Shown piece by piece: positions 2,050-30,013 of a stretch of 64,000 nucleotides of DNA (its first letter is position 1; each line of letters begins with the position of its first letter). The position numbers were made by a program, and so were the translations under genes. This DNA comes from Amycolatopsis sp. cg9. Lineage in GTDB: Bacteria; Actinomycetota; Actinomycetes; Mycobacteriales; Pseudonocardiaceae. The notes beneath the pieces were generated by a model. That model ran no database searches. It was given only the letters and a program-made list of their open reading frames with translations, and was not told the DNA's origin. The stretch covers positions 4,402,001 to 4,466,000 of the forward strand of contig NZ_CP166850.1 of NCBI RefSeq assembly GCF_041346945.1. Reading direction: 5' to 3'.

Positions 2050-3804
2050 CTAGATTCTCGGCTTTCCCGGCGTGAGCTTGCCGGCGCTGTAGGTCCAGGT
2101 GGTCTGCGCGCGGCCACTGGGACAGCAGTGGGCGTCGTCGGGGTGGTACCAGTCTTCGATGGCTTCGATGCGGCCGCGGGAGATCGCGATCGTTTCGACG
2201 CCCGAGGTGTACGTCTGCGGTGTCTGCTTCTGTGCCGTGACGACGCCGACCGGGGCGGGTTTGCCGCTCTTGCCGGTGATGACGACGAATCCCTGCCCGG
2301 GGACGCCGTTGCCGCCGCTGAAGTTGCAGTAGACGTCGATGGCGGCTTCGTCGAGGCCGTCGCCGTCGAGGTCGCCGTAGACGACGGTGCCGTTGGTGCC
2401 CGCGTCGAGAGGCCCGTACCGGGACGGGATACCGCCGGCGGAACCGTTGCGCAGGGTGAAGTCGCCGTTGGTGTCGCAGAGGGCGGCCGGGACGCGGATC
2501 GAGGTCAGCTTGGTGCGGTGCAGGTCCACCGGTGGTACGTGGGCATCGACGGTGATCGTGAACGTATCGGTGCCGCTCGCGCTGCGGACGACTCCTTCGA
2601 GGCCGGCCGCGACCAGGCCGATGCCGGTGGTGAGGATGCCGATCGCCACCTTCACCCGGCGGCCTGTCTCATCGTCTTTCACCGCCGCGCTGACGCAGGA
2701 AAGCACCGACTTGGTCAGATCGGCGACGGCTTCGGCGGTCGGTGGCGTCGGGACGTGCGCGGCCTCGATCGCGTCGCCGAGGCAGCGCATGCTGTCGGCG
2801 GCGGTCTCGAGGTGTCCGGCGCCGCTCTCGAAGACCTCGAGTGCCTCTTCGACGCCGAACAGCAGCGCCATGCCGAGGTAGGTTCCGGCGTCGATCTTCC
2901 CGGTGATCACACCGGGGAGCCGGGCGACCGGGAAGCGGTAGGTCCGTGGTACGCCCGGGATGAGGAGTCCTTCGGCGTACGGCTTGGTTTTGATCAGGGT
3001 GTCGTAGCCGGCGAGCACGGCTGCCTTGCCGGCGTCCACGGTGCCAGGCGGCTCCAAGACGGCCTCGGGAGCGGCGCGGAGCAGCCACGGCAGAGGCGAG
3101 CCGGGCGTCATCGTGACGACCGCTTGGCCGTTCTCGACGCGGAGGCACGACCACACCGGATTTCCGGCGACGGCCCCGCCGAGCGTCACGCTCGTGCCGT
3201 CGCCGGTCGTCGCGGGCGAGGTCGAGCAGGTGGGCTTGGCCGAGGTGATCCCGGTCGTCTGCGCGGCGAAGCGCGTTACGGATCCAGTCAGCTTGCCGAA
3301 GTCGAAGAAGCCCGGCCAGAAGCTGCTGAGGTGGTCGATTTCCGCGGTCAACGTCCGTTCCCCGGCGTTGTACACAGCCGGAATCAGGTGTGTTTCGGCC
3401 GTGCCGGCCGGATTCGTCAGCACCGCTCCGGCCGCGGCGGCGGGTGGCGAGGCAGGAACGGGGAACCGGATCGACATCGGTTTGGCGGGTTGCATTCCGT
3501 TCGCGAGTTTCAGTTCGAGCGGCGAGCCGGTGCCGGCGAACATGGACGCACCCTTGCCGAACGGGGCGCCGGTCCCGGCCTCCGCGCTGAGGACCGTGCC
3601 CGCTGGTGCCACCCCGGCCGGGCCCGTGACGAGAATACCGGCCACCACCAGGGAAACGCCTTGCTCGGTGACCTCCGCCGTGGCACTCCGCCCGGCGGCG
3701 GGGGCAGCACCGCCGCCGCCGAACACGACGATCGCGCCGACGGTGGCCAGGCAGGCGACCACGGTGGCGATCGCGATCGACCATTTGACACGGTTTCGGC
3801 TCAC
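2050..3804 (-). CDS. Membrane-anchored extracellular protein, island-flanking paralogue A
   Basis: A 584-residue protein with a short basic N-terminus, one hydrophobic segment (about residues 8-28) and a long extracellular part rich in Ala, Thr and Gly. The C-terminal third contains the acidic repeat-like GDLDGDGLDEAAIDVY, similar to calcium-binding FG-GAP/VCBS loops. The middle has paired cysteines and a hydrophobic helix-rich stretch. It shares order, length and local motifs (CLRVENG against CLGIENG, DHLSSFWP against DHLSRWDP) with the product at 19012-20769, so the two are paralogues bracketing the secretion island. The GTG start at 3804 is the only plausible one; the preceding GAGGG is very close to it. 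The function is unknown. Confidence 0.75.
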   Translation of the reverse strand: MSRNRVKWSIAIATVVACLATVGAIVVFGGGGAAPAAGRSATAEVTEQGVSLVVAGILVTGPAGVAPAGTVLSAEAGTGAPFGKGASMFAGTGSPLELKLANGMQPAKPMSIRFPVPASPPAAAAGAVLTNPAGTAETHLIPAVYNAGERTLTAEIDHLSSFWPGFFDFGKLTGSVTRFAAQTTGITSAKPTCSTSPATTGDGTSVTLGGAVAGNPVWSCLRVENGQAVVTMTPGSPLPWLLRAAPEAVLEPPGTVDAGKAAVLAGYDTLIKTKPYAEGLLIPGVPRTYRFPVARLPGVITGKIDAGTYLGMALLFGVEEALEVFESGAGHLETAADSMRCLGDAIEAAHVPTPPTAEAVADLTKSVLSCVSAAVKDDETGRRVKVAIGILTTGIGLVAAGLEGVVRSASGTDTFTITVDAHVPPVDLHRTKLTSIRVPAALCDTNGDFTLRNGSAGGIPSRYGPLDAGTNGTVVYGDLDGDGLDEAAIDVYCNFSGGNGVPGQGFVVITGKSGKPAPVGVVTAQKQTPQTYTSGVETIAISRGRIEAIEDWYHPDDAHCCPSGRAQTTWTYSAGKLTPGKPRI

Positions 3805-4023
3805 CCCTCGGAGATCGCCGCATCGGCCGCGAGGTGTTACGGCGGATGTGGTGTTGTTATCCGAGGGTGTCAATCGGCGGGAAGAACCGGTTTCGCCGCT
3901 GGTTTGTTGGTCATTTTCGGTGGCCCTCGCTGTAACAGCAATACGCCCTCCGGCGCTTAAGAGGATCGTGGCCGCCGGACGGATCAATCGCGGCCGCCGT
4001 TTCCCAGCGATTCTGGAGGCCGA
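3805..4023. promoter_or_regulatory. Divergent spacer between paralogue A and the FN3 protein
   Basis: A 219-bp region of lower GC than its flanks that must carry promoters for both divergent genes. GGAGG at 4015-4019 is the ribosome-binding site of the rightward gene. No clear -35/-10 pair could be assigned. Confidence 0.5.
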
Positions 4024-6660: not shown

Positions 6661-6687
6661 CCCGGTTTCAGTGAACGAGGAGAACGA

Positions 6688-7653
6688 ATGAACCAGCAGC
6701 TGACCCCGGGCGACGCCTACAGCCTGATCTCGGCCAACGTGCAACGCGTCGTGCAAGGCAAGCCCGACGTGGTCCGGATGGCGATCGTCGCCATGTTCGC
6801 CGAGGGCCACGTCCTGCTGGAGGACGTGCCCGGTCTCGGCAAGACCACACTGGCCCGCTGCCTCGCCGCGAGCGTCGACGGCACGCTGAACCGGATCCAG
6901 TTCACGCCGGACCTGCTGCCCGGCGACATCACCGGCGGGTCGATCTACCACCAGAGCAGCGAAACGCTCGAGTTCCACCCGGGTGCCATTTTCGCGAACA
7001 TCGTGCTCGCCGATGAAATCAACCGCGGCACGCCGAAGACGCAGTCGGCCCTGCTGGAGGTGATGGCCGAAGCGGCGGTGACCGTCGACGGTCACCGCTA
7101 CGCCATGCCACGGCCGTTCCTCGTGCTGGCGACGCAGAACCCGATCGAACTCGAAGGCACCTACCGGCTCCCGGAGGCGCAGCTGGACCGGTTCCTCGTA
7201 CGGCTCAGCGTCGGCTATCCCGGCCACGACGCCGAAGTGCAGGTGATCTTGGGCGACATGGCGGGGGCAACGCCCGCTCAGCTGGGTCCGGTCCTGAGCC
7301 AGGACGCACTCGCCGGCGTGATCGCCGCGGTGCGGCAAGGGCAGGTGCACCCGGCCGTCTGCTCGTACGCCGTGAGCCTCGCGGAGGCGACGCGGCACCA
7401 CGAACTGGTGCGCTTCGGTGCCAGCCCCCGTGGCAGTGTCGCCCTCGTCCGTGCCGCACGGGCGTGGGCAGCCACCGACGGCCGCGCCTACACGACGCCC
7501 GACGACGTCAAGGCCGTGGCGCCCGCGGTGCTCGAGCACCGGCTCGTGCTCACCCCGGAAGCGGAGCTCAACGGCCGCAAGCCCGCCGACGTGCTCGGCG
7601 AGGTGCTGCGGGCGGTTCCCGCCCCCGGTGGCTCGGCGACGGTCCGGGGCTGA
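6688..7653 (+). CDS. moxR: MoxR-family AAA+ ATPase
   Basis: A 321-residue AAA+ chaperone-like ATPase of the MoxR clade. Walker A is EDVPGLGKTT (about residues 47-56), Walker B is LADEINRG, sensor 1 is LATQNP, and the C-terminal lid contains the expected ASPRGS motif. MoxR proteins act with adjacent DUF58/VWA proteins in maturation of envelope or enzyme complexes. The ATG has a clear GAGGAG upstream and the gene follows the FN3 gene by 27 bp. The DUF58 gene starts 3 bp after its stop, so these genes are cotranscribed. Confidence 0.93.
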   Translation: MNQQLTPGDAYSLISANVQRVVQGKPDVVRMAIVAMFAEGHVLLEDVPGLGKTTLARCLAASVDGTLNRIQFTPDLLPGDITGGSIYHQSSETLEFHPGAIFANIVLADEINRGTPKTQSALLEVMAEAAVTVDGHRYAMPRPFLVLATQNPIELEGTYRLPEAQLDRFLVRLSVGYPGHDAEVQVILGDMAGATPAQLGPVLSQDALAGVIAAVRQGQVHPAVCSYAVSLAEATRHHELVRFGASPRGSVALVRAARAWAATDGRAYTTPDDVKAVAPAVLEHRLVLTPEAELNGRKPADVLGEVLRAVPAPGGSATVRG

Positions 7654-7656
7654 ACC

Positions 7657-8808
7657 GTGCCGTCCATTCCTGCCCCTCGTGGTCTCCGGCTGACCCGCCG
7701 GGGCACCGGTCTGCTGGGCGCCGCCGCGGTCTGCCTCGCCGCCGGGATCGGACTGGGTTTCCCGCTCCTGCGGCTGGTCGCCGGTGCGGCGACCGCCGTG
7801 GTCGTCGTAGCCGTGCTGAGCTGCCTGCGACGGGTGAGTGTCGACGTCCACCGCGAACTCGTGCCCGACCGGGTCGAACGAGGCGACACCGCGGTCGCCA
7901 CGCTCACCCTGACCAACCGCTCGCGCCGGCGCAGCGGCGGGTTCACCGCCGTCGACCCGCCCACCGAGGACGCGCGGCTCGCCGTGCACCCCCTCGCCCC
8001 CGGCGCTTCGGTCGAGAGGGCCTACCGGCTGCCGACCCGGCGGCGCGGCGTGCTCACGGTCGGCCCGCTGACCGTCCGGCGCGCCGACCTGCTCGGACTG
8101 GTCGCCGCGGACGCGCGCGGCGGCAGCACGTCGACGCTGCTCGTGCACCCGCGGCGGCACCGCGTCGGTGTGAGCCTGGGGGCCCACCCGCGCCACCACC
8201 ACGAGGGTGTCATCGCTCCGCGGCCGATGGCGGGTTCGGCCGACCTGCGCGCCGTGCGCGAGTACGTGCTCGGTGACGAGCTCCGGCACGTGCACTGGCG
8301 CGCCACCGCCAAGACCGGCCGGATGATGGTGCGCGAGTACGTCGATCCGGCGCAGCCCCGGTTCACGGTGCTGCTCGACGACCGCGCCGGAGCACTCGAC
8401 GAGGACGGCTTCGAGGCGGCCGTCGAGATCGCCGCTTCGCTCACCCACGCTGCCACCGCCGCGGGCACCCAGACCCGGCTGCTCACGACGACCGGCCTCG
8501 ACCTGAACACCCGGGGTGGTGTGGCGGGCAGCCGCGTGCTGCAGGACGCCCTCTGCGCCGTGGAACAAGGCACCGACGAGCTGAACTCCGAGGTTCTGGT
8601 CTCACGGTGTGCCAGCGGCACCAGTCTGGCTCTGCTCGGCGGCAGGTTCGAGACGGCTTTGGTCGGCGCATTGGGCAAGAGGGCGCGCGAGGTGACGCTG
8701 TTCGACTTCGGGAACTCCGAGCCGGTCGTGCTGCCCGGCGTGACCGTCATCAAGGAGCGTGACGCCGTCGCGGCCGCGGCGGCCTGGAACCGGGTGGTGG
8801 CCGCGTGA
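7657..8808 (+). CDS. DUF58 membrane protein
   Basis: A 383-residue protein with two N-terminal membrane helices (about residues 17-57), an extended beta-rich middle, and the diagnostic DUF58 core LRAVREYVLGDELRHVHW followed by RATAKTGRMMVREY (about 205-235). The C-terminus has a VWA-like fold in many relatives. Its usual partner is MoxR, immediately upstream. The stop overlaps the GTG of the next gene by 4 nt (GTGA), indicating translational coupling. GTG 7657 was chosen because it follows the moxR stop directly. The biochemical role of DUF58 is not settled; it is presumed to be a MoxR client or adaptor in envelope biogenesis. Confidence 0.9.
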   Translation: MPSIPAPRGLRLTRRGTGLLGAAAVCLAAGIGLGFPLLRLVAGAATAVVVVAVLSCLRRVSVDVHRELVPDRVERGDTAVATLTLTNRSRRRSGGFTAVDPPTEDARLAVHPLAPGASVERAYRLPTRRRGVLTVGPLTVRRADLLGLVAADARGGSTSTLLVHPRRHRVGVSLGAHPRHHHEGVIAPRPMAGSADLRAVREYVLGDELRHVHWRATAKTGRMMVREYVDPAQPRFTVLLDDRAGALDEDGFEAAVEIAASLTHAATAAGTQTRLLTTTGLDLNTRGGVAGSRVLQDALCAVEQGTDELNSEVLVSRCASGTSLALLGGRFETALVGALGKRAREVTLFDFGNSEPVVLPGVTVIKERDAVAAAAAWNRVVAA

Positions 8809-10949
8809 CCCGGTTCGCGGCGTGCGCCGCGGTCATCGTCGCGGCCGGCATCGGCGGCCTGCTGTTCCAGCCGGTGTTCACGCTGCCCGCGTTGCTCATC
8901 CCGGTGCTCGCCGCCTGCGTGGCCGTCGTGGCCGCGGACCTCGCCGCCATACGCGCGCCGGCGGTCCTGCGGCCGCCGCTGGCCTTGCTGTTCGGGCTGC
9001 TGGCCCTCATCGCCACCGTGCTGCGCCCGACGTTGAACGGCGTCCTGCCGACGTCCGCCACGGTGCACGCGCTGGGCGACGGACTGCTGCACGGATGGCT
9101 GCGCACCCTGGAGAGCACGTGGCCCGCCCGGCCGGAGCCGGAACTCCTGCTGTTCGTGCCCGTGCTCGTGCTGCTGACCGGCGTGCTCGGGGTCGAATGC
9201 CTCCGCCGGGACCGCAGTCCGCTGGTGGCGCTGGTCCCCAGCCTGGCGCTGGTCGGGCTTTCGCAGGCGTTCTCCGTGGCCGACGGCGGAGACGCTCTGC
9301 TGTTCGGCGGCGGCTACACGGTGGCCGCGGTCGTCGTCCTGGCCGCGGCGAAGTCGGCGGAGAACCGGATCGGGGCACCCGCCGGGCACCGGCGTGCGGC
9401 GCGGCTCCGCGGTTCGGTCACCGGGTACGCGCTACCGGCGGTGGCGACCGTCGCGGCGATCGCGGCCGGCTGCTTGGCGTTCACGGCGTGGACGCCGCTG
9501 AGCAGGCCCGCGTATTCGCTGCCCGCCCACCACCAGCCGCCGGCGGTCACTTCGGTGCTGGCCAATCCGCTCGACGAGATCGGCTCGCGGCTGGCGACCC
9601 CGGCCGCCGAGGTGTTCCACGCCCGCGTCTCCGCACCGGTCGACCGGTGGACCGTGTCGGTGCTGAACCGCTTCGACGGGGTGAACTGGACGAGCAGCGC
9701 GCGGTTCCGGCCGCTGGGCAGCACGTTGCCGGGCCTCGCCGGGGTCCCGGCAGGCGGCCCGACGGCCGAAGCGGCCGTCACGCTCGCCTCGGCGCCGGGT
9801 GCCTGGCTGCCCACGGTCACCCGGACCGACCACGTCGAGGGAGCCAGCCCGCTGGTGGACCCCGCCACCGGGACCCTGCTGTCGACCCAGGCCGCGGACG
9901 GGCTGGCCTACCGCCTGTTCTGGCGCCCGCCGTCGGTGGACGCCCCGAAGCTGGCGTCGTCCGATGTGGACGGCGCGGCGGACGGGCTGGAGCCGGTGGG
10001 ACAGCTGCCGAAGGAGATCGCGCCGCTCCTGCGTGAGGCCACCGGCGGATCGGGGCCGTCGCTGCGGACCGCGTTCGTCCTGGAACAGTGGTTCCGCAAG
10101 AACTACAAGGTGGCCTCGGGGGAGGACATCCCGACCGGGCACGGCTACGCGCAGCTGAGCTTCTTCCTCGCCTCGAGCAAGCGCGGCACGAGCGAACAGT
10201 TCGCCACGGCCTACGCCGTGCTCGCCCGCGCCGCGGGCCTGCCGGTGCGGGTGGCGGTGGGGTTCCGGCAGCCGGCGGCCGCGCCGGGTGGCTCGGTCGT
10301 GGTGCACAACAGCGACGTCCTGGCGTGGCCGGAAGTCGCGGTCCGCGGGGTCGGCTGGGTGCCGCTCGACCCGTCCGGCGCGGCCACCGCGGACGCCGGA
10401 CGGCCGGAAAGCAGCGTGGCGCAGGCGACCGACGACGCGCGCAAGAATCTCCCGCCGCAGCCGGACAACCGGCCGCAGCCGACGACGAACCCGCCGCCGC
10501 AGCCGGCGGCGGCCGGCACTCCGTGGTGGGTGTGGATCGCGCTCGCCCCGCTGGCACTGCTGCTGCTCGTCGCGCTGACACCCGTAGCGGTCAAGACCGT
10601 GCGGCGCCACCGCCGCCGTCGCGGTGCACCGGCGGAGGCGGTGGTCGGAGCGTGGCTCGATGCCCGTGACCGGTTGCGCGACCGCGGTGTCACGGTGGTG
10701 CCCGGCATGACGGCGCGAGAGCTCGCGGCGCTGGTCGGGCCGGACTACCCGGAAGCGGTCAGCCAGGGGCTCCGGCAGCTGTCCCAGTGTCTCGACCTGG
10801 CGTTGTGGTCGGGGTGGACCGCCTCCCCGGAGGTGGCGCGGCGGGCCTGGGCGGCGTCCGACGCCGTGCGCGCCGCCAGTCGGGGCAGCTTGCGGCAGCG
10901 GATCGCTTCGCTGTTCGCGGTGCGCAGCCTGGTGCCCGTGCGAGCGTGA
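8805..10949 (+). CDS. TgpA-type transglutaminase-like membrane protein with degenerate triad
   Basis: A 714-residue protein with about six N-terminal membrane helices, a large extracellular transglutaminase-like domain (about 400-540), a Pro/Gln-rich linker, one more membrane helix (about 570-592) and a cytosolic C-terminal domain (DUF4129-like position). The nucleophile position of the family motif (G-x-C-E-Q-F) is serine: GTSEQFATAY, Ser463. The usual His of the HAW motif is Leu506 in DVLAWPEV. Only the Asp of PLDPS (Asp522) is kept. Classical transglutaminase or protease chemistry is therefore doubtful; a binding or scaffold role is more likely (inference). It ends the MoxR-DUF58 operon at a strong terminator. 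Confidence 0.85.
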   Translation: MTRFAACAAVIVAAGIGGLLFQPVFTLPALLIPVLAACVAVVAADLAAIRAPAVLRPPLALLFGLLALIATVLRPTLNGVLPTSATVHALGDGLLHGWLRTLESTWPARPEPELLLFVPVLVLLTGVLGVECLRRDRSPLVALVPSLALVGLSQAFSVADGGDALLFGGGYTVAAVVVLAAAKSAENRIGAPAGHRRAARLRGSVTGYALPAVATVAAIAAGCLAFTAWTPLSRPAYSLPAHHQPPAVTSVLANPLDEIGSRLATPAAEVFHARVSAPVDRWTVSVLNRFDGVNWTSSARFRPLGSTLPGLAGVPAGGPTAEAAVTLASAPGAWLPTVTRTDHVEGASPLVDPATGTLLSTQAADGLAYRLFWRPPSVDAPKLASSDVDGAADGLEPVGQLPKEIAPLLREATGGSGPSLRTAFVLEQWFRKNYKVASGEDIPTGHGYAQLSFFLASSKRGTSEQFATAYAVLARAAGLPVRVAVGFRQPAAAPGGSVVVHNSDVLAWPEVAVRGVGWVPLDPSGAATADAGRPESSVAQATDDARKNLPPQPDNRPQPTTNPPPQPAAAGTPWWVWIALAPLALLLLVALTPVAVKTVRRHRRRRGAPAEAVVGAWLDARDRLRDRGVTVVPGMTARELAALVGPDYPEAVSQGLRQLSQCLDLALWSGWTASPEVARRAWAASDAVRAASRGSLRQRIASLFAVRSLVPVRA

Positions 10950-10994
10950 AATGCCGAAGGGGCGCCGGAAAACCCCGGCGCCCCTTCGGCATTT
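10949..10994. terminator. Bidirectional intrinsic terminator
   Basis: A perfect 20-bp inverted repeat (10949-10968 with 10975-10994) with a 6-nt AAAACC loop, beginning in the stop codon of the transglutaminase-like gene. The ends are AAA and TTT, so it can act for both the rightward operon and the leftward kinase gene that stops at 11003. Confidence 0.9.
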
Positions 10995-11002
10995 CTCACG
11001 AG

Positions 11003-12421: not shown

Positions 12422-12493
12422 GCCGAAAGCGTAGCGTCCGGCGCCCCGTCGGCGATAGTTTCCGCGAGAACTGCGGACCCCGTGGGAGAAAAA
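12422..12493. promoter_or_regulatory. Divergent promoter region, kinase / FHA-FtsK
   Basis: A 72-bp spacer between two divergent starts that must hold both promoters. GGGAG at 12484-12488 is spaced 5 nt from GTG 12494 and decides that start over the in-frame GTG at 12482. Confidence 0.6.
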
Positions 12494-15400
12494 GTGCGCA
12501 TTCGTTTGTCAGTCCGTGATCCGCGCGATGGGGTGTTACGCGATTTCGGTATCGAATGCGTACCGGAGAATACCGCGGGCGAGGTGCTCGAGGCGGTGGG
12601 AGCGGTGCTCGGCGGGACCGGCCCGGCGACCGTCGGCGGCAACCGGATCGACGAGGCTCTGCCTGTCGCCGATTCGCCGGTGCGCGACGGCGTGGTCGTG
12701 GACTTCTCCGGTGCCGTCGCGCCTCCACCGGTGGCCGCACGCGGTCCGGTGCTCCGGGTCGTTTCCGGACCCGACGCGGGCCGGTCACTCCCTCTCGTGC
12801 TGGGCCGGGACACGCGGATCGGCCGCCGTGGCGAGGTCGATCTCGCGCTGTCCGACGGTGATGTGTCGCGGCTGCACTGCGTGGTCCGGTGGGACGGTAC
12901 CCGGATCCGGCTCGTCGATCCGGGGTCCCGGAACCGCACCGTGGTGAGCCGCGACGGCCGGTTCGACGGCCGTACTCCCTTGCCGCACGGCGTGCCCGAG
13001 GACCTGCCGCCGGGAGAGCAGTTCCAAATCGGCGGAACCCGGCTCGCCGTCGAGCTCCCCGGTGCGCGTGTTCCACTGAGGCCCGACGGGAAGGGAGGTC
13101 TCCTGGTCAACCGCGCACCGCGCACGCGCGCACGCTTCACCAAGTCCACAGTGGACCTGCCGGGACTGCCGCCGGTCCAGACGGCGCACCGGAGCCCGCT
13201 GTTGCTGATGGCCGGCTTGCCCCTGGTGCTCAGCGTGGTGATGGCTTGGGTGTTCCACCAGCCGTCCTTCCTGATGCTCGGGTTGCTGTCGCCGGTGATG
13301 GCGGTCGGGATGTGGTGGAACGCGCGCCGCGTGGCGAAGCAGGCCAACGCGGACAACGCCCTTGATTACGACCGGCGCCTCGCCGGGGCCAAGGTCGCGG
13401 TGCACGCCGCCGTCGACGAAGAAGACGCTTTCCTGCGCCGGGAGTGGCCGGCGCCGGTCACGGTGCTGGAGCGGGCCGAGCCGGGCGCCGCCGGCCTGTG
13501 GCAGCGGCGTACCGGTGACGACGACTGGCTGCGGTTCCGGCTGGGGCGCAGTACCCGCGCGGCGTCGGTCGGGCTGAACGGACCCGCGCCGGCGGACGGG
13601 TGGCGACCGCCTCAGCTCGCCGACGCGCCCATCGGTGCCGGCCTCGACGGTGGCGCGCTCGGTGTTGCCGGCCCCGCCTCGGACGCCGGGCGGGTGCTCG
13701 ACTGGCTGCTGGTCCAGGCCGCCGTTCTGCACGGGCCGGACGAGCTGCGCATCGCGGTCCTCGCTCCCGGGTCGCGAGAGCTGCTCTGGACGCGGTGGCT
13801 GCCGCACCTGAGGACCGGCACCGGCGGTGTCCGGGCAGCGTGGGCGCACGAAGCGGTGGGGGACGCGGTGAAGCCGCTCACCGAACTCGTGCGGACGCGG
13901 CTGGAAAGCCGGCGGCCCGGTGAATCCGCGGCGGACACGCTCGTGGTGCTCGTCGGTGCCCGGGAACTCGGCGAGCGGCAAGACGTCACCGATCTCCTGC
14001 GGGAAGGCCCGCTCGCCGGGCTGCGCTTCCTCTGCGTCGACGAATCGGTCGCGGCGCTGCCCAGCTCGTGCGACGCCGTGCTCGCTCTGGAACCCACCGG
14101 GGACCGCCTGAGCGTGGCACAAGGGGATCCGTTCGCGGTGACCGCCGACCGGATCGACACCGGTGCGGCGGAGCGGGTGGCGCGGATGCTGGCGCCGCTC
14201 CGGGTCGTCGGCTCGGCGAGTGCGGCAGCCGCGCTGCCGGACGTGGTCCGCTTCAGCGACATCGTGCCGGCGATCGCCGAGGACGAAGTGCGGGCTGCCT
14301 GGCAGCTGTCCCCCGAATGCACCTCGGTGCCGATCGGTGCCGACGCGTCGGGGACCGTGCACGTGGATCTCGTGAAGGACGGCCCGCACGGCGTGATCGT
14401 CGGCACCACCGGCGCCGGCAAGAGCGAGTTCGTGACGACCTTGGTCGCGTCGCTGGCGCTCGCGAACTCCCCGGCGCACCTGAACTTCCTCTTCGTCGAC
14501 TTCAAGGGCCACTCGACGTTCCAGGACCTCGAGCGGCTTCCGCACGCCGTCGGCACGGTCACGAACCTCGACGGCGCGGTTCCCCGGTTCTTCGGCTCGC
14601 TGCAGGCGGAACAGCTGCGCCGGCAGCGGCTGTTCGAAGCGGCCGGCGTGAGCGAGTTCGGCGGGTACGGCTGTGCGGCCGCCCGGAAGGGGTTGCCGCC
14701 GCTGGCCCGGCTGGTCGTCGTGGTCGACGAGTTCGCCGAGCTCAAGCACCACCTGCCGACCGCCGTCGACGACCTCGTCGGCCTCGCCAGGCTGGGCCGG
14801 TCACTCGGCCTCCACCTGCTGCTGGCCACCCAGGACGAAGCCGATGTGACGACCCAGATCAAGCACAACGCGGAGCTGAAGGTCGCGTTGCGGGTCAGCC
14901 GGTCGGTGAGCGACATGCTCCTGGACAGCCCGCTCGCCGGTGAGATCGGCAAGCGGCAGAAAGGTCGCGCCGTGCTGCGGCAGTCCGACGTCCTCCGCAC
15001 GGTGCAGACCGCCTGGTGCGGTGCGCCCAGCGGCAGCGCGCAGACCATCGCGCTGCGCGTGGTTCCGCTGCGGGACCAGGATCTGGAGCTGCCCGAGCCG
15101 CCCCGGAAGAAGAAGATTTCCGCGGACCGCACCGAACTGGACGACCTCGTCGACGCGATCACCGCGGCCACCGAGGCCGCCGGAATCCAGGTCCCGCACC
15201 GGCCGTGGCTCCCGCCGTTGCCGGATCTGCTGGTCCGCGACGCGTGCGCCCCGGTCCCGTTCGCACTGGACGTGGGACTGCGCGACGTCCCGGCCGAACA
15301 GCAGCAAGTCCCGTTCGCTCCGCGCCTGGGCAGCGGGCACCTCCTGCTGATCGGCGCGCCCCGTTCGGGTCGCACGAGCGCGGTGCGCGCAATCGCTTGC

Positions 15401-16681
15401 GGACTGGTCGCGGACACGTCGCCCGACGCGCTGCAGCTGCACGCGATCGCGGTCGGGCACAGCCTCGGCGAACTGGCGGACCTGCCGCACAGCGGTGTGG
15501 TCACCGACGTCGGTGATGCCTGGCAGGTGGAACGGGTGCTCAGCCGGCTCGGCGAAGAGGTGCGATCCCGCCGCGAGACGCTCGCCGCGGCCGGCGTGAG
15601 CACCCTGGACGAGCTGCGGGAACGCGACTCCGGAGCACCGCCGCACCTGGTGCTGCTCGTCGACGGTGTCGACGTCCTCACCGAACGCGACAGCACGGCC
15701 CAGCTGCTCCAGCGGCTGTTGGAGGACGGCGTGACCGTGGGACTCACCGTGTGCGTGACGAGCACCGGAACCAAGCTGCGGACGCGGTTCGCCGGACTGT
15801 TCGAGCACCGCCTGAGCCTTCGCCGCGCCGACAACGACTGCCTCGGCGCACTGGGGTTCGCCCACCGCGCCGACGTCACCAAGCTCCCGCCCGGCCGTGC
15901 GCTCCTGCGGGACGATTCCACCCTGGTCCAGATCCCCTTGCTGACCGGCGATCCGTCCGGTGGGGCACAACGAGCGGCGCTCGCCGAGGAGGTCGGCCGC
16001 GCGGTGAAGCGCTGGACACCGCCCAGGCGGGCACCCCTGCGCGTCGACCGGATTCCGGCCACCTTGCCACTGTCCGGCGCGCTGGCGTACGGGAACCGGC
16101 CGGCCGGCCGGCCGGCCCTGCTCGGAGTGGGCGGCGACGAGCTGACCACGCACTGGGCCGACTTCGACCGCGATCACGTGGTGGCGATCGTCGGTCCACG
16201 CAGGTCGGGACGCTCCAGCGCACTCTGCTCGATGGCGCTGAGTGCCGCGGCGAACGGCCTCCGCGTCGCCGTGGTCGCCGACCGGCGAGGTGCGGCGCAC
16301 GCGCTGGTCGAACGGGCGGGCATTTTCGTCGGCGGCGCGGACGAGCTGGCGCGGGCGCTGACACCGGGGCTGGACGCGCTGTTCGTCGACGACGCGGACC
16401 GCTTGGGCTTCCCGGAGCCGCGTCCCTTCGGCCTGCCCGGCCGGCCGGCGTTGGTGGGTGCGTTCATCGCCGACAAGTTCGCCCACGGCCGCGGCTTGGC
16501 CCAGGTCCTCGCGGCCGCCGAAGTCGGTGTCGTGCTCAGTCCCGGCCGGGGCGAGGTGCTCGGCGTCGACTTCCCGCGCCCGGCGTTCGACTTCCCGGTG
16601 GGACGCGGCTACCTCGTCTCGCACGGCGAGGCGGTGCTCGGCCGGATCGCCGAGCCCGAGGCGGTCACCCCGGTGGGCTGA
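12494..16681 (+). CDS. EssC-like FHA-FtsK/SpoIIIE ATPase of a type VII-like system
   Basis: A 1395-residue protein with the domain order of Firmicute EssC. An N-terminal ubiquitin-like stretch (1-80) precedes an FHA domain (about 100-175, with GRDTRIGR, DVSRLHC and DPGSRNRT). Two membrane helices (about 234-275) lead to a spacer and three FtsK-type ATPase modules. Module 1 is intact: Walker A GTTGAGKSE (637-645) and Walker B VVVVDEF (Asp745, Glu746). Modules 2 and 3 keep the loop but have Arg for the Walker A lysine (GAPRSGRTS, Arg960; GPRRSGRSS, Arg1240). Such ATPases drive export of WXG100-type substrates through the membrane. WXG-type genes are convergent with it, and no EccB/D/E, mycosin, EssA or EssB homologue is seen nearby. 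Confidence 0.9.
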   Translation: MRIRLSVRDPRDGVLRDFGIECVPENTAGEVLEAVGAVLGGTGPATVGGNRIDEALPVADSPVRDGVVVDFSGAVAPPPVAARGPVLRVVSGPDAGRSLPLVLGRDTRIGRRGEVDLALSDGDVSRLHCVVRWDGTRIRLVDPGSRNRTVVSRDGRFDGRTPLPHGVPEDLPPGEQFQIGGTRLAVELPGARVPLRPDGKGGLLVNRAPRTRARFTKSTVDLPGLPPVQTAHRSPLLLMAGLPLVLSVVMAWVFHQPSFLMLGLLSPVMAVGMWWNARRVAKQANADNALDYDRRLAGAKVAVHAAVDEEDAFLRREWPAPVTVLERAEPGAAGLWQRRTGDDDWLRFRLGRSTRAASVGLNGPAPADGWRPPQLADAPIGAGLDGGALGVAGPASDAGRVLDWLLVQAAVLHGPDELRIAVLAPGSRELLWTRWLPHLRTGTGGVRAAWAHEAVGDAVKPLTELVRTRLESRRPGESAADTLVVLVGARELGERQDVTDLLREGPLAGLRFLCVDESVAALPSSCDAVLALEPTGDRLSVAQGDPFAVTADRIDTGAAERVARMLAPLRVVGSASAAAALPDVVRFSDIVPAIAEDEVRAAWQLSPECTSVPIGADASGTVHVDLVKDGPHGVIVGTTGAGKSEFVTTLVASLALANSPAHLNFLFVDFKGHSTFQDLERLPHAVGTVTNLDGAVPRFFGSLQAEQLRRQRLFEAAGVSEFGGYGCAAARKGLPPLARLVVVVDEFAELKHHLPTAVDDLVGLARLGRSLGLHLLLATQDEADVTTQIKHNAELKVALRVSRSVSDMLLDSPLAGEIGKRQKGRAVLRQSDVLRTVQTAWCGAPSGSAQTIALRVVPLRDQDLELPEPPRKKKISADRTELDDLVDAITAATEAAGIQVPHRPWLPPLPDLLVRDACAPVPFALDVGLRDVPAEQQQVPFAPRLGSGHLLLIGAPRSGRTSAVRAIACGLVADTSPDALQLHAIAVGHSLGELADLPHSGVVTDVGDAWQVERVLSRLGEEVRSRRETLAAAGVSTLDELRERDSGAPPHLVLLVDGVDVLTERDSTAQLLQRLLEDGVTVGLTVCVTSTGTKLRTRFAGLFEHRLSLRRADNDCLGALGFAHRADVTKLPPGRALLRDDSTLVQIPLLTGDPSGGAQRAALAEEVGRAVKRWTPPRRAPLRVDRIPATLPLSGALAYGNRPAGRPALLGVGGDELTTHWADFDRDHVVAIVGPRRSGRSSALCSMALSAAANGLRVAVVADRRGAAHALVERAGIFVGGADELARALTPGLDALFVDDADRLGFPEPRPFGLPGRPALVGAFIADKFAHGRGLAQVLAAAEVGVVLSPGRGEVLGVDFPRPAFDFPVGRGYLVSHGEAVLGRIAEPEAVTPVG

Positions 16682-16701
16682 CCGCCTCGCGGCGGTCAGC
16701 C
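16676..16701. terminator. Convergent hairpin overlapping both stop codons
   Basis: An 11-bp perfect stem (16676-16686 with 16691-16701, loop TCGC) that includes the stop codons of both convergent genes, with no T tract. It probably separates the FHA-FtsK transcript from the leftward WXG operon. Confidence 0.65.
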
Positions 16702-17292
16702 GACGAAGCGGAAGGTGTCCGCGATCTCGGTGAAGAGCCGGTCGAATCCGGCGGCGAAGTCCACATTGGGCGTGACGAACGCCAGCACGGCGACCTGGTC
16801 CAGCCCGGGCACCGGGACGTGGAACCGGCGGGTGAACGCCTCGGTGCCGGTGTGGGGCAGGCGCACGCGCCCCCACGTGGTGAGAGCCGGGCCACCGGAA
16901 AGGTCGTGGACGCCGATCTCGGTGCCGGTGGCCCGCGCTTCACGCTCGATCTCGCCCCGCACGCCGGCACCGTCGCCGACGTGCGGGGACAGCGCGACCG
17001 TGACGTTGGCCGTGAAGACCTCCAGTCCGCCGGAGCCGCTGTCGACGTATTCGGTGAAGAAGCCCGCCAGCACCACGTCGACGTGCGCGGACAGGCGTCG
17101 CAGCTCGGTGCTGAGCGGCGCGACGAACCGGGCCACCGCGGCTTGGTCGCTCGTGTCGGCCCCGTGCTCGGCGAGGGTGCGGAGGACTTCCGCGTCCAGA
17201 TCGGGCACGCGGGGATCGACTTCCAGCCAGGTCTCCGGTAGCCGCAGCCGGACGCCGGTCGCGGTGCGGCCGGGAAGGTCTTCGACAGTCAC
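16696..17292 (-). CDS. Small alpha/beta protein in the WXG operon (LpqN/Mog1-like fold?)
   Basis: A 198-residue protein without signal peptide or membrane segment. The layout starts with GVRLRLPETWLEVDP and ends with VAVLAFVTPNVDFAAGFDRLF and ADTFRF. It resembles the PsbP/Mog1/LpqN-type fold found as accessory proteins beside actinobacterial secretion loci; this is a resemblance by eye only. The GTG start overlaps the stop of the upstream substrate-like gene by 4 nt, so the two are translated together. It may be a chaperone, adaptor or immunity-like partner of that protein (inference). No catalytic motif is visible. Confidence 0.7.
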   Translation of the reverse strand: MTVEDLPGRTATGVRLRLPETWLEVDPRVPDLDAEVLRTLAEHGADTSDQAAVARFVAPLSTELRRLSAHVDVVLAGFFTEYVDSGSGGLEVFTANVTVALSPHVGDGAGVRGEIEREARATGTEIGVHDLSGGPALTTWGRVRLPHTGTEAFTRRFHVPVPGLDQVAVLAFVTPNVDFAAGFDRLFTEIADTFRFVG

Positions 17293-18611
17293 CGTTTCAC
17301 CTCGACGAGTGTTTCCAGGGACTTCCAGCCGAACGTACCCAGTTCGCCGATCCGTTCCGAGGTCGACGGCTCCGGGCCGTACCAGTCGCCGTCGATGTCG
17401 CGGCGGACCTTGTCGATCGAGCCGGTGACGTCGGATCCGGTGTTCGCGAGCTCGTCGGCCTGCACCGCCGCGCCGGTCAGGTGGTAGGCCCGGGTGACGA
17501 AGTTGCCGCCGGGTGCGTCGAAGAGCCGGACGTGGTCCACCAAGTTCTCGGCGTCGTGCACGGAACTGACGGTCTCGGTGCCCTTCGCCGTGAGCCCCGC
17601 CTTCCCCACCGCGCCCAGCGATGCGATCCCCAGCGCGACTCCGGCGTCCACCAGCTTCGGGGCTTTGCTGTGATCGGCCGCGGTTTGCAGGCCGCGTCCG
17701 ACGACGGCGATCCCGCCCAGCACCAGCCCGGCGCCGTACATGCCCGCGGCGATCTCACCGGCGCCGGGGACCAGGCCGACGAGCGGCGCGATCTGGGTCA
17801 GCATCGAACTGCAGTCCGACATCCAGGTGAGGAACTCGTCGAACTCGGTCGACGTCACCAGAGCCTGGAACCCGTGCCAGGCCGTTTCGAGGGGGTTGCG
17901 GTGGTAGCTGTGGGCGACTTCGGCGGCCCGGTCGACGGCCTCCGCGGCGGTGTTGCCGGCGTCCTGGTGCAACGCCTGGACGCGGCTGCCCGTGCGGCGT
18001 GCGGCGTCAAGCCGCTCATCGGCCAGGTCCAGCTGTGTCGAGGCGTACTTCGCGTCACCGTCGGCTTGTCCCTTGGCCGCGATCGCCTGGCGCTTGACCT
18101 GCTCGTCCTGCTGGATGTGGTGCTGCGCGTCGGCCGTGCCGGCGGCGTCGGCCGCGGTCTGGCTCACCACCAGCCGCTGCCGGGTGAAGACCAGCCGGGT
18201 CTGCGCCGAAGTGGCTTGCCTGCCGGAGTCGGCCGACCGCCGCTGGGCGTCGGCGAGGTTCCGCCTGAACAGCTCGGCGTCGGCGGCCGCGGCGGCGGCG
18301 GAGCGTTCGGCTTGCTGCGCGTCGAGCTGGTTCTGGACCAGTTCGTCGGCGTAGATCATCAGCGCGTCCCCGGCTTCCCGGTAGGACTCGGAAAGCCGGT
18401 CGAGGTCCGAGCACAGCTCGATGACCGACCGCCCGAAGGCCTCCGCGCCGAGCCCCGCCCACACCTCGTCGGCCTGGCCATTGCGAATCTCGCGCAGCTC
18501 GTCGCGGGCGTGCTCGGCGCGGTCGGAGATGGCCAGGAAACCCTTGGCGGTACCGCGCACTTGTTCGGGGTCGCCGGGAGCGGGATCCCAGCCCAGGTGC
18601 TCGAAGCTCAT
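17289..18611 (-). CDS. Large WXG-type putative type VII substrate
   Basis: A 440-residue protein whose first 110 residues form a helical hairpin of the WXG100 type, with the turn motif VWAGLGAEAF near residue 52. A long Ala/Gln/Arg-rich coiled coil follows (about 110-220), then a hydrophobic patch (IAPLVGLVPGAGEIAAGMYGA, about 270-300) and a C-terminal region of about 120 residues. Proteins of this shape are secreted by type VII systems, sometimes with a C-terminal toxin. No known toxin motif is visible here. It overlaps both neighbours by 4 nt (ATGA and GTGA) and lies convergent to the FHA-FtsK gene, so it is the best candidate cargo of that ATPase. Confidence 0.8.
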   Translation of the reverse strand: MSFEHLGWDPAPGDPEQVRGTAKGFLAISDRAEHARDELREIRNGQADEVWAGLGAEAFGRSVIELCSDLDRLSESYREAGDALMIYADELVQNQLDAQQAERSAAAAAADAELFRRNLADAQRRSADSGRQATSAQTRLVFTRQRLVVSQTAADAAGTADAQHHIQQDEQVKRQAIAAKGQADGDAKYASTQLDLADERLDAARRTGSRVQALHQDAGNTAAEAVDRAAEVAHSYHRNPLETAWHGFQALVTSTEFDEFLTWMSDCSSMLTQIAPLVGLVPGAGEIAAGMYGAGLVLGGIAVVGRGLQTAADHSKAPKLVDAGVALGIASLGAVGKAGLTAKGTETVSSVHDAENLVDHVRLFDAPGGNFVTRAYHLTGAAVQADELANTGSDVTGSIDKVRRDIDGDWYGPEPSTSERIGELGTFGWKSLETLVEVKR

Positions 18612-18895
18612 TGCGCGCCCCCGAGCGTGCGCACGACTTCGCCCTCGGTGCCGGTGTAGGCCCCGAGGGCCTGGTCGAGCCGGTCGGCGAAGTCGTCGAA
18701 CTTCGCACCCAGCTCACGCCGGCCGTCGCCCCACTTGCCGACGAAGCTGTGGACGGCGTCGGCCAGCCGCGGGTAGCCGGTCTCCGCGGCACTGAGCGAA
18801 TCGGCCTCGGCAACCGATTCGAGGTCGCCGTGGATCTCTCGCACGGTCGCGGCCAGCCGTCCCACTGCGGAGGGGTCGACCGAGAACCCGGTCAT
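18608..18895 (-). CDS. Small WXG100-like protein
   Basis: A 95-residue, all-helical protein with GKWGDGRREL in the expected central turn position, matching WXG100/ESX helical-hairpin proteins in size although the exact W-x-G spacing is not kept. ATG 18895 was chosen over longer starts up to 18970 because it gives the family's usual length and begins MTGFSVDP, a typical N-terminus. The stop overlaps the start of the large WXG-type protein (ATGA). The two probably form a heterodimer exported by the type VII-like ATPase (inference). Confidence 0.75.
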   Translation of the reverse strand: MTGFSVDPSAVGRLAATVREIHGDLESVAEADSLSAAETGYPRLADAVHSFVGKWGDGRRELGAKFDDFADRLDQALGAYTGTEGEVVRTLGGAQ

Positions 18896-19011
18896 CGCCG
18901 GAGCCACTCGGCCGAGGGATTGGGGGTCGCACACCTGGATGACATGCCAAGAGGTCGCTTGGCCGAGCACACCTGTTACGGCTACGAAGGTTGACGACGA
19001 GTACCGCGCTG

Positions 19012-20769
19012 TCAGCAGCCGTCCTCCCGGTTGGTCGGAGCGTGGCCCGGCAACCCGACGCCCGCGACGTAGGAGACCTTGGCGCGGCCGGCGGCGTAGT
19101 CGCTCTGGCTACCGTCCTCCAGGCCGAAGCCGATGGCCCCCTTCGCCGAGCTGACGACCACCCCGTTGGAGCCCTGCCCGAAGTCGAGGTCGAGCTGCTC
19201 GTCGATGGTGTAACCGGCGAACGCCTTCCGCAGCTCGGCCAGTGTGGAGCCGACTCCGATCCCGCCGACCTGCGTACGGAGGGCCTGGTCGCCGCCGAAA
19301 TTGCGCACGGCGAGGATCCGGCCCGTCTTGGCCTCGACGCTGGCGCTGAGGCTTTGACCGTCCTTGGCGTACCGCACGCACGACGGGGAGTTCTGGTCGT
19401 AGGCGTTGCCCTGGTCGGTGTATCCGCGCTCGCGGAGATCGTTCGCGGTCAGGTCGAAGTTCACCGGCCCGATTCCGTCGAACCGCACGACGTGGGGGTC
19501 CTGGTCGCTCACCTTCGGGCGGTAGCCGACGGTCACGGTCTCCCGGTCGCGGCCGCCCAGGAGATCGCGGAGGGTTTCGAACTGGCTGCGGAAGAACTCG
19601 GCGGCGGGGCCCGCGACCATCACCGCACCCAGGAGCACACCCCGCCAGCCGAACACCTCCGCCAGCGCCGCCGGGCTGAAGCAGCCCTTGAGGATGGCGC
19701 CGACGTCCGGCGTCCGCTGGTCGACGGCCGCGGCGCACTCCTTGATGCCGAGGGCCTTCGCCATCTTCTCGACGACCCGGTCGTACTCGCTGATCTTGAG
19801 GGCGCCGTTGCTGATCGTGCCGCCCCCGGCGCCGAACCGGGTGAGGATGTTGATCAACGAGGTCAGGCCGAACTCGAGCTGGTACAGGGACTCGGCGAAG
19901 CCGTCGTATTCGGTCGTGAAGCTGAGGTTCTGCCCGCTGCCGAGCTGGAAGGTCAGTCCGGCCTGGTCGAACGGCATCAGAGCCGTGCGTTTGTCGCTGA
20001 AGGACTGCTGGGCGACCCACTGCAGGGCGAACCTGTCCTTCGGCCGCTCGGCGACGGTGAGTCCGGCGTGGTTCACCAGGATCGGATAGCGCCGCTTGTC
20101 CACGATCCGCACGATCGGCTTGCCGTTCTCGATGCCCAGGCACCAGTGGAGCGGGTCGCTGCCCTTCGTGCCGATGGAGTAACCCCGGGCGCGGGCGTCG
20201 CGCTCACCGGCGCACTTCGGCTGCTCCGCCTCCGCGAACGCGTCCCCGGTCAAGGTGTCGAAGCTCTTCTTCAACTCGGTCTTGACCGCGTCCACCAGGT
20301 CGGTGAAGGGCCGGATCAGCGGATCCCACCGCGACAGGTGGTCGGTCGTGACGTAGGCGAAGCCGCCCTCCACCTTGGAAGGTGCCACGAGTTCCCAGCC
20401 GTCGGCCTCGCCGGTCCGGTTGACGGCGATGACCACGTCGGCTGCCTCGACCTGGCGGTCCAGCGCGAACCGGAGCGTGACGGGCGCCGGCAGGTCACCG
20501 TCGGGTGTGAGGTGGACGACGCCGTTGAGCGACTCGGTTCCCGTGAAGGACGGCTTCGCGGCCTGGTCGTCGGGGATCGCCTTCATCGATGGCGGAGCGC
20601 CGTCCGAGACGCTCACTCCGCTGCCGATGTCCCGGAACGCACCGTTCGCGGGGTTTTGCGGCGGCGCGGAGGTGCCGGTCAGCAGCCAGGCGGTCAGCCC
20701 GCCCGCCACCAGCACGCCCACCACCACGAGCGCGAGAACGGCACGCTTTCGACGCGATCGCGGCAGCAC
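19012..20769 (-). CDS. Membrane-anchored extracellular protein, island-flanking paralogue B
   Basis: A 585-residue protein with a very basic N-terminus (RSRRKR), one membrane helix (about residues 9-30) and a large extracellular part. GTG 20769 was chosen over ATG 20793 because GAGGAGGA lies just upstream of it. It is nearly the same length as the product at 2050-3804 and shares its layout: a beta-rich segment containing HLSRWDP, a CLGIENG motif, a helix-rich middle with a hydrophobic stretch, and a C-terminal beta domain. The C-terminal 180 residues differ and carry regularly spaced Gly/Asp. The gene reads towards the WXG operon with a 116-bp spacer, so it may be cotranscribed. The function is unknown; secretion-system partner or envelope receptor is the contextual guess. 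Confidence 0.75.
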   Translation of the reverse strand: MLPRSRRKRAVLALVVVGVLVAGGLTAWLLTGTSAPPQNPANGAFRDIGSGVSVSDGAPPSMKAIPDDQAAKPSFTGTESLNGVVHLTPDGDLPAPVTLRFALDRQVEAADVVIAVNRTGEADGWELVAPSKVEGGFAYVTTDHLSRWDPLIRPFTDLVDAVKTELKKSFDTLTGDAFAEAEQPKCAGERDARARGYSIGTKGSDPLHWCLGIENGKPIVRIVDKRRYPILVNHAGLTVAERPKDRFALQWVAQQSFSDKRTALMPFDQAGLTFQLGSGQNLSFTTEYDGFAESLYQLEFGLTSLINILTRFGAGGGTISNGALKISEYDRVVEKMAKALGIKECAAAVDQRTPDVGAILKGCFSPAALAEVFGWRGVLLGAVMVAGPAAEFFRSQFETLRDLLGGRDRETVTVGYRPKVSDQDPHVVRFDGIGPVNFDLTANDLRERGYTDQGNAYDQNSPSCVRYAKDGQSLSASVEAKTGRILAVRNFGGDQALRTQVGGIGVGSTLAELRKAFAGYTIDEQLDLDFGQGSNGVVVSSAKGAIGFGLEDGSQSDYAAGRAKVSYVAGVGLPGHAPTNREDGC

Positions 20770-21312: not shown

Positions 21313-21561
21313 CTACCCGGTGCTCGGTCGCCGTACCCATCGCCGGATCCGACGGGCCCGTCGTGCCTTGCGGCTCCGAGGCGGAGCCTTGGGAACCGGG
21401 GAACCAGGGCCGATCGTGGCAGAGAGGGCGGACTCGACGGGCAGAATCCGGTCCAGGCCGGCGAGCAGGTCGTCGGATGCACTTCCCAAGAAGGTGTAGA
21501 CCGCGGCGACGTCCTCGGCACCGCGGGGCGCGCCACCCTCCCGATGCGGATCACTGGTCAT
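21313..21561 (-). CDS. Small basic-tailed protein downstream of the sigma factor
   Basis: An 82-residue protein whose start overlaps the sigma-factor stop by 11 nt. The N-terminal half (AEDVAAVYTFLGSASDDLLAGLDRILPVE) is helical and acidic, and the C-terminus is strongly basic (RSRKARRARRIRRWVRR). There is no membrane segment. Coupling to the sigma gene suggests a regulatory partner. The surrounding decay means the C-terminus may be truncated. Confidence 0.5.
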   Translation of the reverse strand: MTSDPHREGGAPRGAEDVAAVYTFLGSASDDLLAGLDRILPVESALSATIGPGSPVPKAPPRSRKARRARRIRRWVRRPSTG

Positions 21562-22155
21562 GGGACACCGCCTTGAGCTTGAGGCTGAGCGTGGTCAGCG
21601 CACGTGAGATGTTCTTGCGGACGGCAGCTTCGGTCTTTCCCGTCTGGGACGCGATTTCCGTGTTGGTGTAGCCGTCCAGGTGCCAGGTCAGGTGCAGTCG
21701 CTGGGTCGGTGGGAGGGTGTCGAGCACGAGGCGGGCGTCGGCCGTGCTGTTCGCGAGGGCGACGACGTCTTCGGGCATCAGGTCGCTATCCGGGTGGTCG
21801 GGCACGTCGCGGCGCGACCGGTGCGTCCGGTCTGGGCTGAGGCGCCAATACGCCCTGGTGGCGGTTGTTCGGAGCCAGGCCTTTCTCGCCATGCGATTGT
21901 CGGAGAGAGTGGCCCACTTGACCCACGCGCTCGTGAAGGCCGTCTGTGCCGCGTCCCAGGCATCCTCGGCGGACGCACCGAAAGCCATCATCAGGAATCC
22001 TGCGAGAGGAGCGGCCTCGTCGCGGTAGAACCGCGAGTAGTCGGCACGCAGACGATCCGCGCGGCTCCGGGTGGTGACGGGCTGCCGATCGAGCGAAGAC
22101 GGCGGGAACAGCTGTCTGCGTGTGCGGTAGTGCGCTTCGGTGCGAGGTCGGTCAT
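21551..22155 (-). CDS. ECF-type sigma factor, 5' end uncertain or frameshifted
   Basis: The protein has sigma region 2 (RADYSRFYRDEAAPLAGFLM through FTSAWVKWATLS) and region 4 (LPPTQRLHLTWHLDGYTN, then TEIASQTGKTEAAVRKN), the plan of a short ECF sigma factor. The start is unclear. The only in-frame start is TTG 22195, inside the upstream small gene and without a ribosome-binding site. An ATG at 22155 overlaps the upstream stop as ATGA, a typical coupled start, but is in a different frame from the conserved region. A 1-nt frameshift between 22155 and about 22060 would explain this. The start coordinate given is that ATG. The gene may therefore be inactive or mis-assembled. Confidence 0.65.
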
Positions 22156-23604: not shown

Positions 23605-23623
23605 CACCTGCGTCACACGCAAA

Positions 23624-23652
23624 GGGCCCCGCGCCGAGCCGGTGCGGGGCCC
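23624..23652 (+). terminator. Terminator of HU paralogue 1
   Basis: Stem GGGCCCCGC/GCGGGGCCC (23624-23632 with 23644-23652), 20 bp after the stop codon, followed by a short TTC stretch. A hairpin with the same GGGCCCCGC core follows HU paralogues 2 and 3. Confidence 0.85.
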
Positions 23653-29997: not shown

Positions 29998-30013
29998 GAT
30001 GTCGCCAGGGGTG

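Follow-up and report, generated by a model that had tools for sequence, protein, structure and literature searches.

Two described gene sets lie closest to the locus reported here. The first is the type VII secretion system T7SSd, a set of a WXG protein, a kinase, two further genes and an EssC-type ATPase, whose TsdI is a large Ig-like protein with a Sec signal and a C-terminal helix; the main text of its description mentions neither MoxR, DUF58, transglutaminase nor fibronectin, and its available text reports no ubiquitin-like protein (Garrett, Higginson and Palmer, 2024; PMC11217815). The second is the PFNA operon of bifidobacteria, which runs from a kinase (pkb2) through fn3, moxR and duf58 to a transglutaminase-like gene (tgm) and in some cases also carries PPM phosphatase and FHA genes (PMC8430577; PMC6803598). 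FtsK, ESAT and WXG are absent from the main text of the former account and FtsK, ESAT and secretion from that of the latter; a 2025 review, in its accessible text, likens the mycobacterial moxR1 operon to PFNA. Here we describe a locus of Amycolatopsis sp. cg9 in which both kinds of gene stand together, within a 64,000-nucleotide stretch of the 10.6 Mb genome (NZ_CP166850.1; G000:C1:4402001-4466000; hereafter the window), its genes being taken from open frames and Pfam. It is probably devoted to type VII secretion and belongs to a broad actinobacterial class of such loci, in which the ATPase combines ubiquitin-like, FHA and FtsK parts; a kinase and an FN3-MoxR-DUF58-TgpA envelope set would serve it. 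A first-pass annotation had known of no described system with this whole set; no paper joining the two halves was found in literature lying largely outside subscription journals, but the genes that make up the accessory half are already described as the PFNA operon.

The anatomy of the locus, its recurrence and its genetic linkage are direct observations. Pfam confirmed every domain of the proposed union, in which a type VII-like locus adjoins genes for a kinase, MoxR, DUF58, a TgpA-like protein and an FN3 protein (Table 1). The DUF58 and TgpA frames share a 4-nt GTGA overlap, the kinase gene is convergent with TgpA, and the genes for the 198-, 440- and 120(95)-aa proteins are joined by 4-nt GTGA/ATGA overlaps. 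The first-pass annotation held that a neighbourhood not conserved in relatives would count against it; the set recurs in relatives (a genome of another genus of the same family, G760, other genomes of the family, and another order), so that objection falls away, though recurrence is far from universal. In G760 the order is the same gene for gene from FN3 through the EspC-like protein, with FN3-MoxR-DUF58-TgpA forward, the kinase reverse and again convergent with TgpA, EssC forward, and the 198-, 440- and 120-type genes reverse.

Table 1. Genes of the locus and its immediate flanks, in window coordinates.
Feature	Position	Strand	Basis
Secreted or anchored protein B, 584 aa	2050..3804	-	Open frame; N-terminal hydrophobic stretch by eye
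FN3 protein, 878 aa	4024..6660	+	Pfam fn3, E 2e-32, 3 stretches
MoxR AAA+ ATPase	6688..7653	+	Pfam AAA_3, E 2.5e-60; AAA_lid_2
DUF58 protein	7657..8808	+	Pfam DUF58, E 1.3e-9
TgpA-like membrane protein, pseudo-transglutaminase domain	8805..10949	+	Pfam TgpA_N, Transglut_core, DUF4129
Ser/Thr kinase	11003..12421	-	Pfam Pkinase, E 2.8e-24; hydrophobic stretch by eye
EssC-type ATPase (FHA + FtsK_SpoIIIE)	12482..16681	+	Pfam, profiles, tree
198-aa partner protein	16696..17292	-	Open frame; 198-family profile/phmmer neighbourhood
440-aa candidate substrate	17289..18611	-	By eye, N-terminus WXG-like and C-terminal part rich in glycine and hydrophobic
EspC-like WXG-type protein, 95 aa (120 aa from 18970)	18608..18895	-	PF10824 just under cut-off
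Anchored secreted protein A, 593 aa	19012..20793	-	Open frame; pairwise BLASTP

At 1e-60 the EssC finds matches in 26 of the 120 genomes searched in the window's family, mostly through the EccC of ESX systems. MoxR, DUF58, TgpA and a kinase lie beside seven of the nine FHA-EssC genes examined there (two in G760, and G775b, G792, G782, G748 and G747), the remaining two (G753, G775a) having only WXG/440/198-type genes; this set of nine leaves out one further candidate, G740:C6. In contig G760:C23 two FHA-EssC systems from different branches (L121-L123), each with its own kinase, MoxR, DUF58 and TgpA, lie within ~33 kb. A scan of 297 genomes of another order with the EssC and TgpA of G008, counting EssC rows of at least 1000 bits, placed TgpA within 15 kb of at least 46 of 82 EssCs and within 20 kb of at least 47 (0.8 expected under a rough uniform model); one row (G422) is broken by a contig end, and 25 were counted as misses: in 12 of these TgpA lies solely on a different contig, and 13 are without TgpA among the matches listed. 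Kinship among the genomes inflates all such linkage probabilities. Blind clustering of 42 loci, including the window and three ESX loci, returned the same recurring families. In loci picked by hand these genes lie in a single run, to which several add F14, PPM and FHA genes, and in G415, G782 and G208 the TgpA stop overlaps the EssC start (GTGA/ATGA), as placed by the analysis's own gene caller. Matches to 'AncB' beside MoxR genes were discarded as antisense-frame artefacts.

Such runs bear on which half serves which. In the operons of G415, G782 and G401, FN3, MoxR, DUF58 and TgpA lead straight into EssC, as expected if the ATPase served the module by exporting or inserting FN3 or another PFNA-type surface protein, with the WXG-type proteins as helpers. 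We regard this as improbable: the FN3 protein's own N-terminal anchor, seen by eye, suffices for Sec export, and many EssCs retain WXG, 440 and 198 partners without FN3.

Related copies of the module also accompany ESX loci, so the set is not tied to one ATPase class. At 8.735-8.770 Mb of the same genome (L188, L189), EccC, EccB, EccD, an S8 protease, a kinase, TgpA, DUF58, MoxR and FN3 lie in one run, with the kinase again convergent with TgpA; EccC and DUF58 were assigned by an in-house profile and the others by Pfam (EccD with its YukD domain), and two small genes of this locus had no Pfam match. Within the genus, 22 of 30 genomes have a TgpA relative at 1e-15. Counting as module-type those at E 1e-100 or better, window excluded, 11 of 26 lie within 15 kb of EccC and 13 within 30 kb, so that the module is near an ESX-type ATPase (15 kb or less) in this genome and 10 other genomes of the genus. 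In a sample of 48 genomes of the family, 4 of 12 module TgpA genes (G697, G702, G723, G000), spanning three genera, lie 2.95-2.97 kb from EccB, one more (G713) is 30 kb away, and none of five distant TgpA genes is near EccB, the distances here being read by eye. The ESX-linked copies may stem from few events, and the linkage probabilities are therefore not independent. The presence of the accessory set beside both FHA-EssC and ESX loci suggests a shared, so far unstudied type VII partner. A bolder extension, which we offer tentatively and think somewhat less likely than its opposite, is that the module, kinase included, is a portable type VII envelope-assembly unit of actinobacteria that would take the place of the absent channel proteins where the ATPase is FHA-EssC and be an addition to the machinery of ESX, the PFNA 'host-communication' operon being an ATPase-less descendant.

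Several observations weigh against the proposed union. Within the genus, none of 29 other genomes exceeds 213.2 bits with the EssC (the level of ESX EccC; self 3081). In a phylum survey, where 73 of 396 genomes match the EssC at 1e-30 with FHA-EssC and ESX EccC mixed, MoxR, DUF58 and TgpA stand within ~16 kb in 6 of 30 relative loci, these being most, not all, of the higher-scoring EssC matches; in G134, TgpA sits at the edge. The best 80 named loci among the matches listed come foremost from Streptomyces, then from Cellulomonas, Microbacterium, Actinomadura, Nonomuraea, Blastococcus and others, with duplication between these and the unnamed loci removed for L217 only. Among the 54 with at least 8 kb on each side, 46 have W100-type, 25 have 440-type and 19 have 198-type genes (all 19 also with a 440-type gene), and 17 have a kinase. 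The full MoxR/DUF58/TgpA triad occurs in one of the 54 and in three of the 80 (L258, L285, L287), two of which (L258, L287) are among the 26 that the flank filter removed. Many FHA-EssC loci, chiefly in Streptomyces, carry WXG, 440- and 198-type genes without the module, and the whole module was not seen in Streptomyces loci among the best 80; the rarity of the triad in named loci makes the module accessory. Conversely, G805, G814, G817 and G826 have the module without the ATPase in the 20 kb examined, a TgpA homologue is present in seven genomes probed from a Bifidobacteriaceae-like genus while the ATPase query yields only 591-705-aa frames there, save one of 1,329 aa in G510, and eight of the 12 family-sample TgpA genes have no EccB within 15 kb. 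No module is in reach of 19 EssCs with an intact FHA, none of the genome's 19 WXG100 (PF06013) matches falls in the window, and the loss of the catalytic cysteine described below spans TgpA copies, including the bifidobacteria-like ones, whether linked to type VII genes or not. As a side observation, L258 is a metagenome-assembled genome labelled Deltaproteobacteria with actinobacterial FN3, MoxR, DUF58, TgpA, EssC, 198 and 440 genes, perhaps a binning error.

That each half occurs alone, with Streptomyces loci lacking the module, modules lacking an ATPase in reach, and PFNA-type genes in bifidobacteria-like genomes where no full-length EssC was found, is what two independent neighbours would leave: a T7SSd-like exporter next to a PFNA-type envelope or sensing operon, linked as a conserved neighbourhood. 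We hold this to be rather unlikely, although the most serious of the alternatives, as the linkage is repeated in differing gene orders, in several families and with two ATPase classes, and the TgpA and EssC reading frames overlap. A served type VII locus remains the reading we prefer.

The ATPase, for which GTG 12482 is the best-guess start, consists of a ubiquitin-like region (~12488-12707), an FHA domain (~12812-13033), hydrophobic segments and FtsK modules. Three FtsK modules had been proposed, whereas Pfam gives two FtsK stretches; by eye, a full Walker A is present only in the first module. The NCBIfam EssC and EccC models both fall below cut-off and do not decide between the two. A profile built from the N-termini of 16 actinobacterial EssCs matches ubiquitin folds, among them a designed ubiquitin (2.9e-7) and ISG15 (1.7e-6), over roughly its first 75 positions; taken singly, four of the 16 sequences match YukD, and that of the window is not one of them. 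Against the YukD domains of EccD, the wide EssC set reaches a profile probability of 88% and the T7SSd-type set one of 53%. No separate ubiquitin-like gene was seen in the locus, and the fold appears, on these profile matches, to be fused to the ATPase N-terminus.

We placed this ATPase in a FastTree phylogeny (local support values), where it groups with that of G760 (support 1.0; 45% EssC identity). Both fall in a 32-leaf subclade (0.985) with the EssCs of G469, G524 and Bombiscardovia (L245), inside a 74-leaf FHA-EssC clade supported at just 0.761. The G469 and G524 proteins group, at support 1.0, with that of Bombiscardovia, a member of the Bifidobacteriaceae. All three loci have the published T7SSd set of WXG, kinase, two further genes and EssC (the two genes being called as 140 aa plus 1,742 or 1,446 aa in G469 and G524), and they stand in by gene content for the published TsdC sequences, which are not in the tree. 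On this placement, T7SSd-type systems are a branch within the actinobacterial FHA-EssC tree. G110 was dropped as a T7SSd reference, the tree putting it outside. In this small genome, which belongs to a different class, an EssC-like ATPase that falls outside the main clade (L063-L064) is accompanied by several helical substrate-like sets and by a separate 80-aa gene that is ubiquitin-like in appearance. The FHA-FtsK fusion had been called a Firmicute plan; it is common in Actinomycetota, with the 82 rows above from one order and T7SSd-matching EssCs included, and so is not Firmicute-specific.

The locus resembles T7SSd in its FHA-FtsK ATPase, its membrane kinase, its small helical proteins and the lack of any EccB/D/E or EssB found; a 440-type gene also adjoins the EssCs of the T7SSd-matching loci. 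Its ATPase is of the TsdC lineage with FHA, judged by those gene-content references, and its membrane Ser/Thr kinase corresponds to TsdD, while for TsdA the nearest candidate is the 95/120-aa protein, with no PF06013 match in the window. It differs in having FN3-MoxR-DUF58-TgpA besides, and in lacking both a TsdI with a C-terminal anchor and a TsdH-like gene, none of which was noticed among called locus genes of at least 60 codons. The ubiquitin-like N-terminus indicated by profile also contrasts with the published description, but T7SSd-type EssCs give the same signal, more weakly (the 53% above), and so it does not separate the locus from T7SSd. As no such TsdI is present, the locus is not filed as T7SSd in the 2024 sense: it is not T7SSd by strict definition, but a variant of the T7SSd kind. 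With ESX (T7SSa) it shares an FtsK ATPase and small helical proteins, and the genus has the related module next to ESX loci, but the locus has no EccB, EccD, EccE or mycosin matches, and its ATPase, extended at the N-terminus by ubiquitin-like and FHA parts, lies in a separate clade. T7SSb (Yuk/Ess), as characterised in the available text of PMC11217815, likewise has FHA on EssC and a ubiquitin-like component, there a separate protein; it differs in having two FHA domains where the window EssC has one, and the pseudokinase EssB, for which no match was found, where the window kinase has a conserved Lys and DFG.

The small helical proteins are less readily classified. Two WXG-type proteins had been proposed. 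Neither reaches the Pfam WXG100 model, but the 95/120-aa one is EspC-like (PF10824, 23.2 bits against a cut-off of 23.5) and has a homologue in the equivalent place in G760 (E 5e-9). The 440-aa protein matched no Pfam family, and the 198-aa protein found no relative in Pfam or PDB profile searches. The latter is a candidate substrate chaperone or immunity protein; a Mog1/Eag-chaperone-like fold was our own assumption, and the same searches gave no match to it. Of 47 genes matched by the 198 profile or phmmer, 42 sit no more than three genes from a 440-type gene, the 440/198 counts relying on profiles made from matches in these very loci. The 198-aa protein has nine homologue matches, the three with organism names all in Amycolatopsis (93% identity in Amycolatopsis sp. 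cmx-4-83). Beyond EssC, G469 and G524 have a gene of 206 aa and one of the 440 type; the 206-aa gene has no match with the 198 profile and is 15% identical to the window's 198 in alignment, whereas the gene in the 198 place of Bombiscardovia is matched by the profile.

By domain content, rather than by comparison with bifidobacterial reference sequences, all five PFNA gene types are in the window, and several EssC-linked copies share the PPM and FHA genes as well. The locus departs from the PFNA order, since its kinase lies after TgpA on the opposite strand and convergent, and its set stands next to a type VII ATPase and genes of substrate-like products. The PFNA order itself is found in G208, G611, G415 and G782, though in three of these an additional gene follows the kinase. 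The FN3 protein has, by eye, an N-terminal hydrophobic anchor followed by an extracytoplasmic part with the FN3 domains, and no C-terminal hydrophobic segment; its homologues hold the equivalent place in G760 and next to ESX loci.

The catalytic triad of transglutaminases is Cys-His-Asp. At these columns, set by alignment to an intact copy in the same genome, the window TgpA reads Ser-Leu-Asp (Cys to Ser, His to Leu). The cysteine is present in none of 38 TgpA copies (Ser 20, Asp 10, Ala 4, Glu 3, Pro 1) and the histidine in nine, while one of 18 further homologues, the most distant own-genome copy (9.78 Mb), has Cys-His-Asp. Cysteine loss is seen across the TgpA clade and is therefore a trait of the clade and not of linkage to type VII secretion.

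The window FHA retains Arg/Ser/His/Asn, an exact motif found in 46 of 130 EssCs and not in the T7SSd-type G469 and L245. The module is present with 14 of 33 EssCs whose FHA has Arg/Ser/His/Asn(or His) and with 4 of 64 without it (Fisher P 3e-5, window included), a test uncorrected for relatedness and run after the flank filter had removed several module-positive loci; the association of the motif with kinase presence is weak (P 0.03). The kinase itself retains, by eye, Lys and DFG, with HGD in place of HRD. Under the reading we favour, the ATPase would export the 120/440-aa helical pair, the 198-aa partner holding the hydrophobic 440-aa substrate until export. The kinase would phosphorylate threonines that the intact EssC FHA reads, gating assembly. 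The FN3-MoxR-DUF58-TgpA set may build or load an envelope part for the exporter, in which MoxR and DUF58 would work together as chaperones, TgpA, its pseudo-transglutaminase domain being non-catalytic, would provide a scaffold in the membrane, and the FN3 protein would form the extracytoplasmic piece.

The first-pass annotation had found no channel components. This stands for the locus, where the ten proteins scanned gave no Pfam match to EccB, EccD, EccE, mycosin or EssB, but not for the genome, which has three eccB loci elsewhere; no EssA or EsaA family appeared among the locus proteins scanned either, though no dedicated profile was used for these two. Given those eccB loci, the other objection named in the first-pass annotation, that canonical EccB/D/E genes elsewhere pair with these WXG-type proteins, keeps some weight. 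The left flank, up to tRNA-Glu (ending at 1683), is common to all 20 same-genus relatives examined. Similarity to them is gone within ~180 bp past that gene and returns near 29.0 kb in G821, G814 and G819. The locus thus lies in a variable region, and acquisition, or patchy loss in relatives, is likely. Channel proteins without a match in the locus, eccB loci elsewhere, an ATPase not seen in 29 other genomes of the genus and a variable region behind tRNA-Glu would all suit a decayed or non-secretory locus, an ATPase leftover whose WXG-type proteins are exported by canonical ESX elsewhere. This is very improbable given intact frames, retained Walker A and FHA residues, an arrangement conserved in G760 at 45% EssC identity, and a 198-aa protein in three named Amycolatopsis.

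The setting has further features. tRNA-Gln and tRNA-Glu (1436-1683) edge the region 1684-29000, which diverges in all 20 relatives; no tRNA attachment repeat was among 20 of 27 direct-repeat families listed. An ECF-type sigma factor gene (Sigma70_r4_2; 21554-22195, minus strand) lies beside the island, and two alike stretches in opposite orientation (22818-23655 and 29947-30768) lie in a lysine/alanine-rich, HU-like-looking gene region. In G697, of the same genus, FN3-MoxR-DUF58-TgpA and an ESX EccC (L177/L194) lie ~14-33 kb from the same HAD-tRNA flank. The flanking proteins A and B had been called alike; they are detectably so, but weakly (BLASTP, 27% over 104 aa, E 4e-5), and with no match to either seen in the G760 locus they are probably outside the core set.

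The locus bears on the question of how so few components take T7SSd-like systems across the cell wall, and on the fate of the T7SSd ubiquitin-like part, a fold that seems here to have become part of the ATPase. Two classes of type VII ATPase are accompanied by an envelope module centred on MoxR. The locus also bears on the PFNA operon, whose 'transglutaminase' is very likely without transglutaminase or cysteine-protease chemistry.

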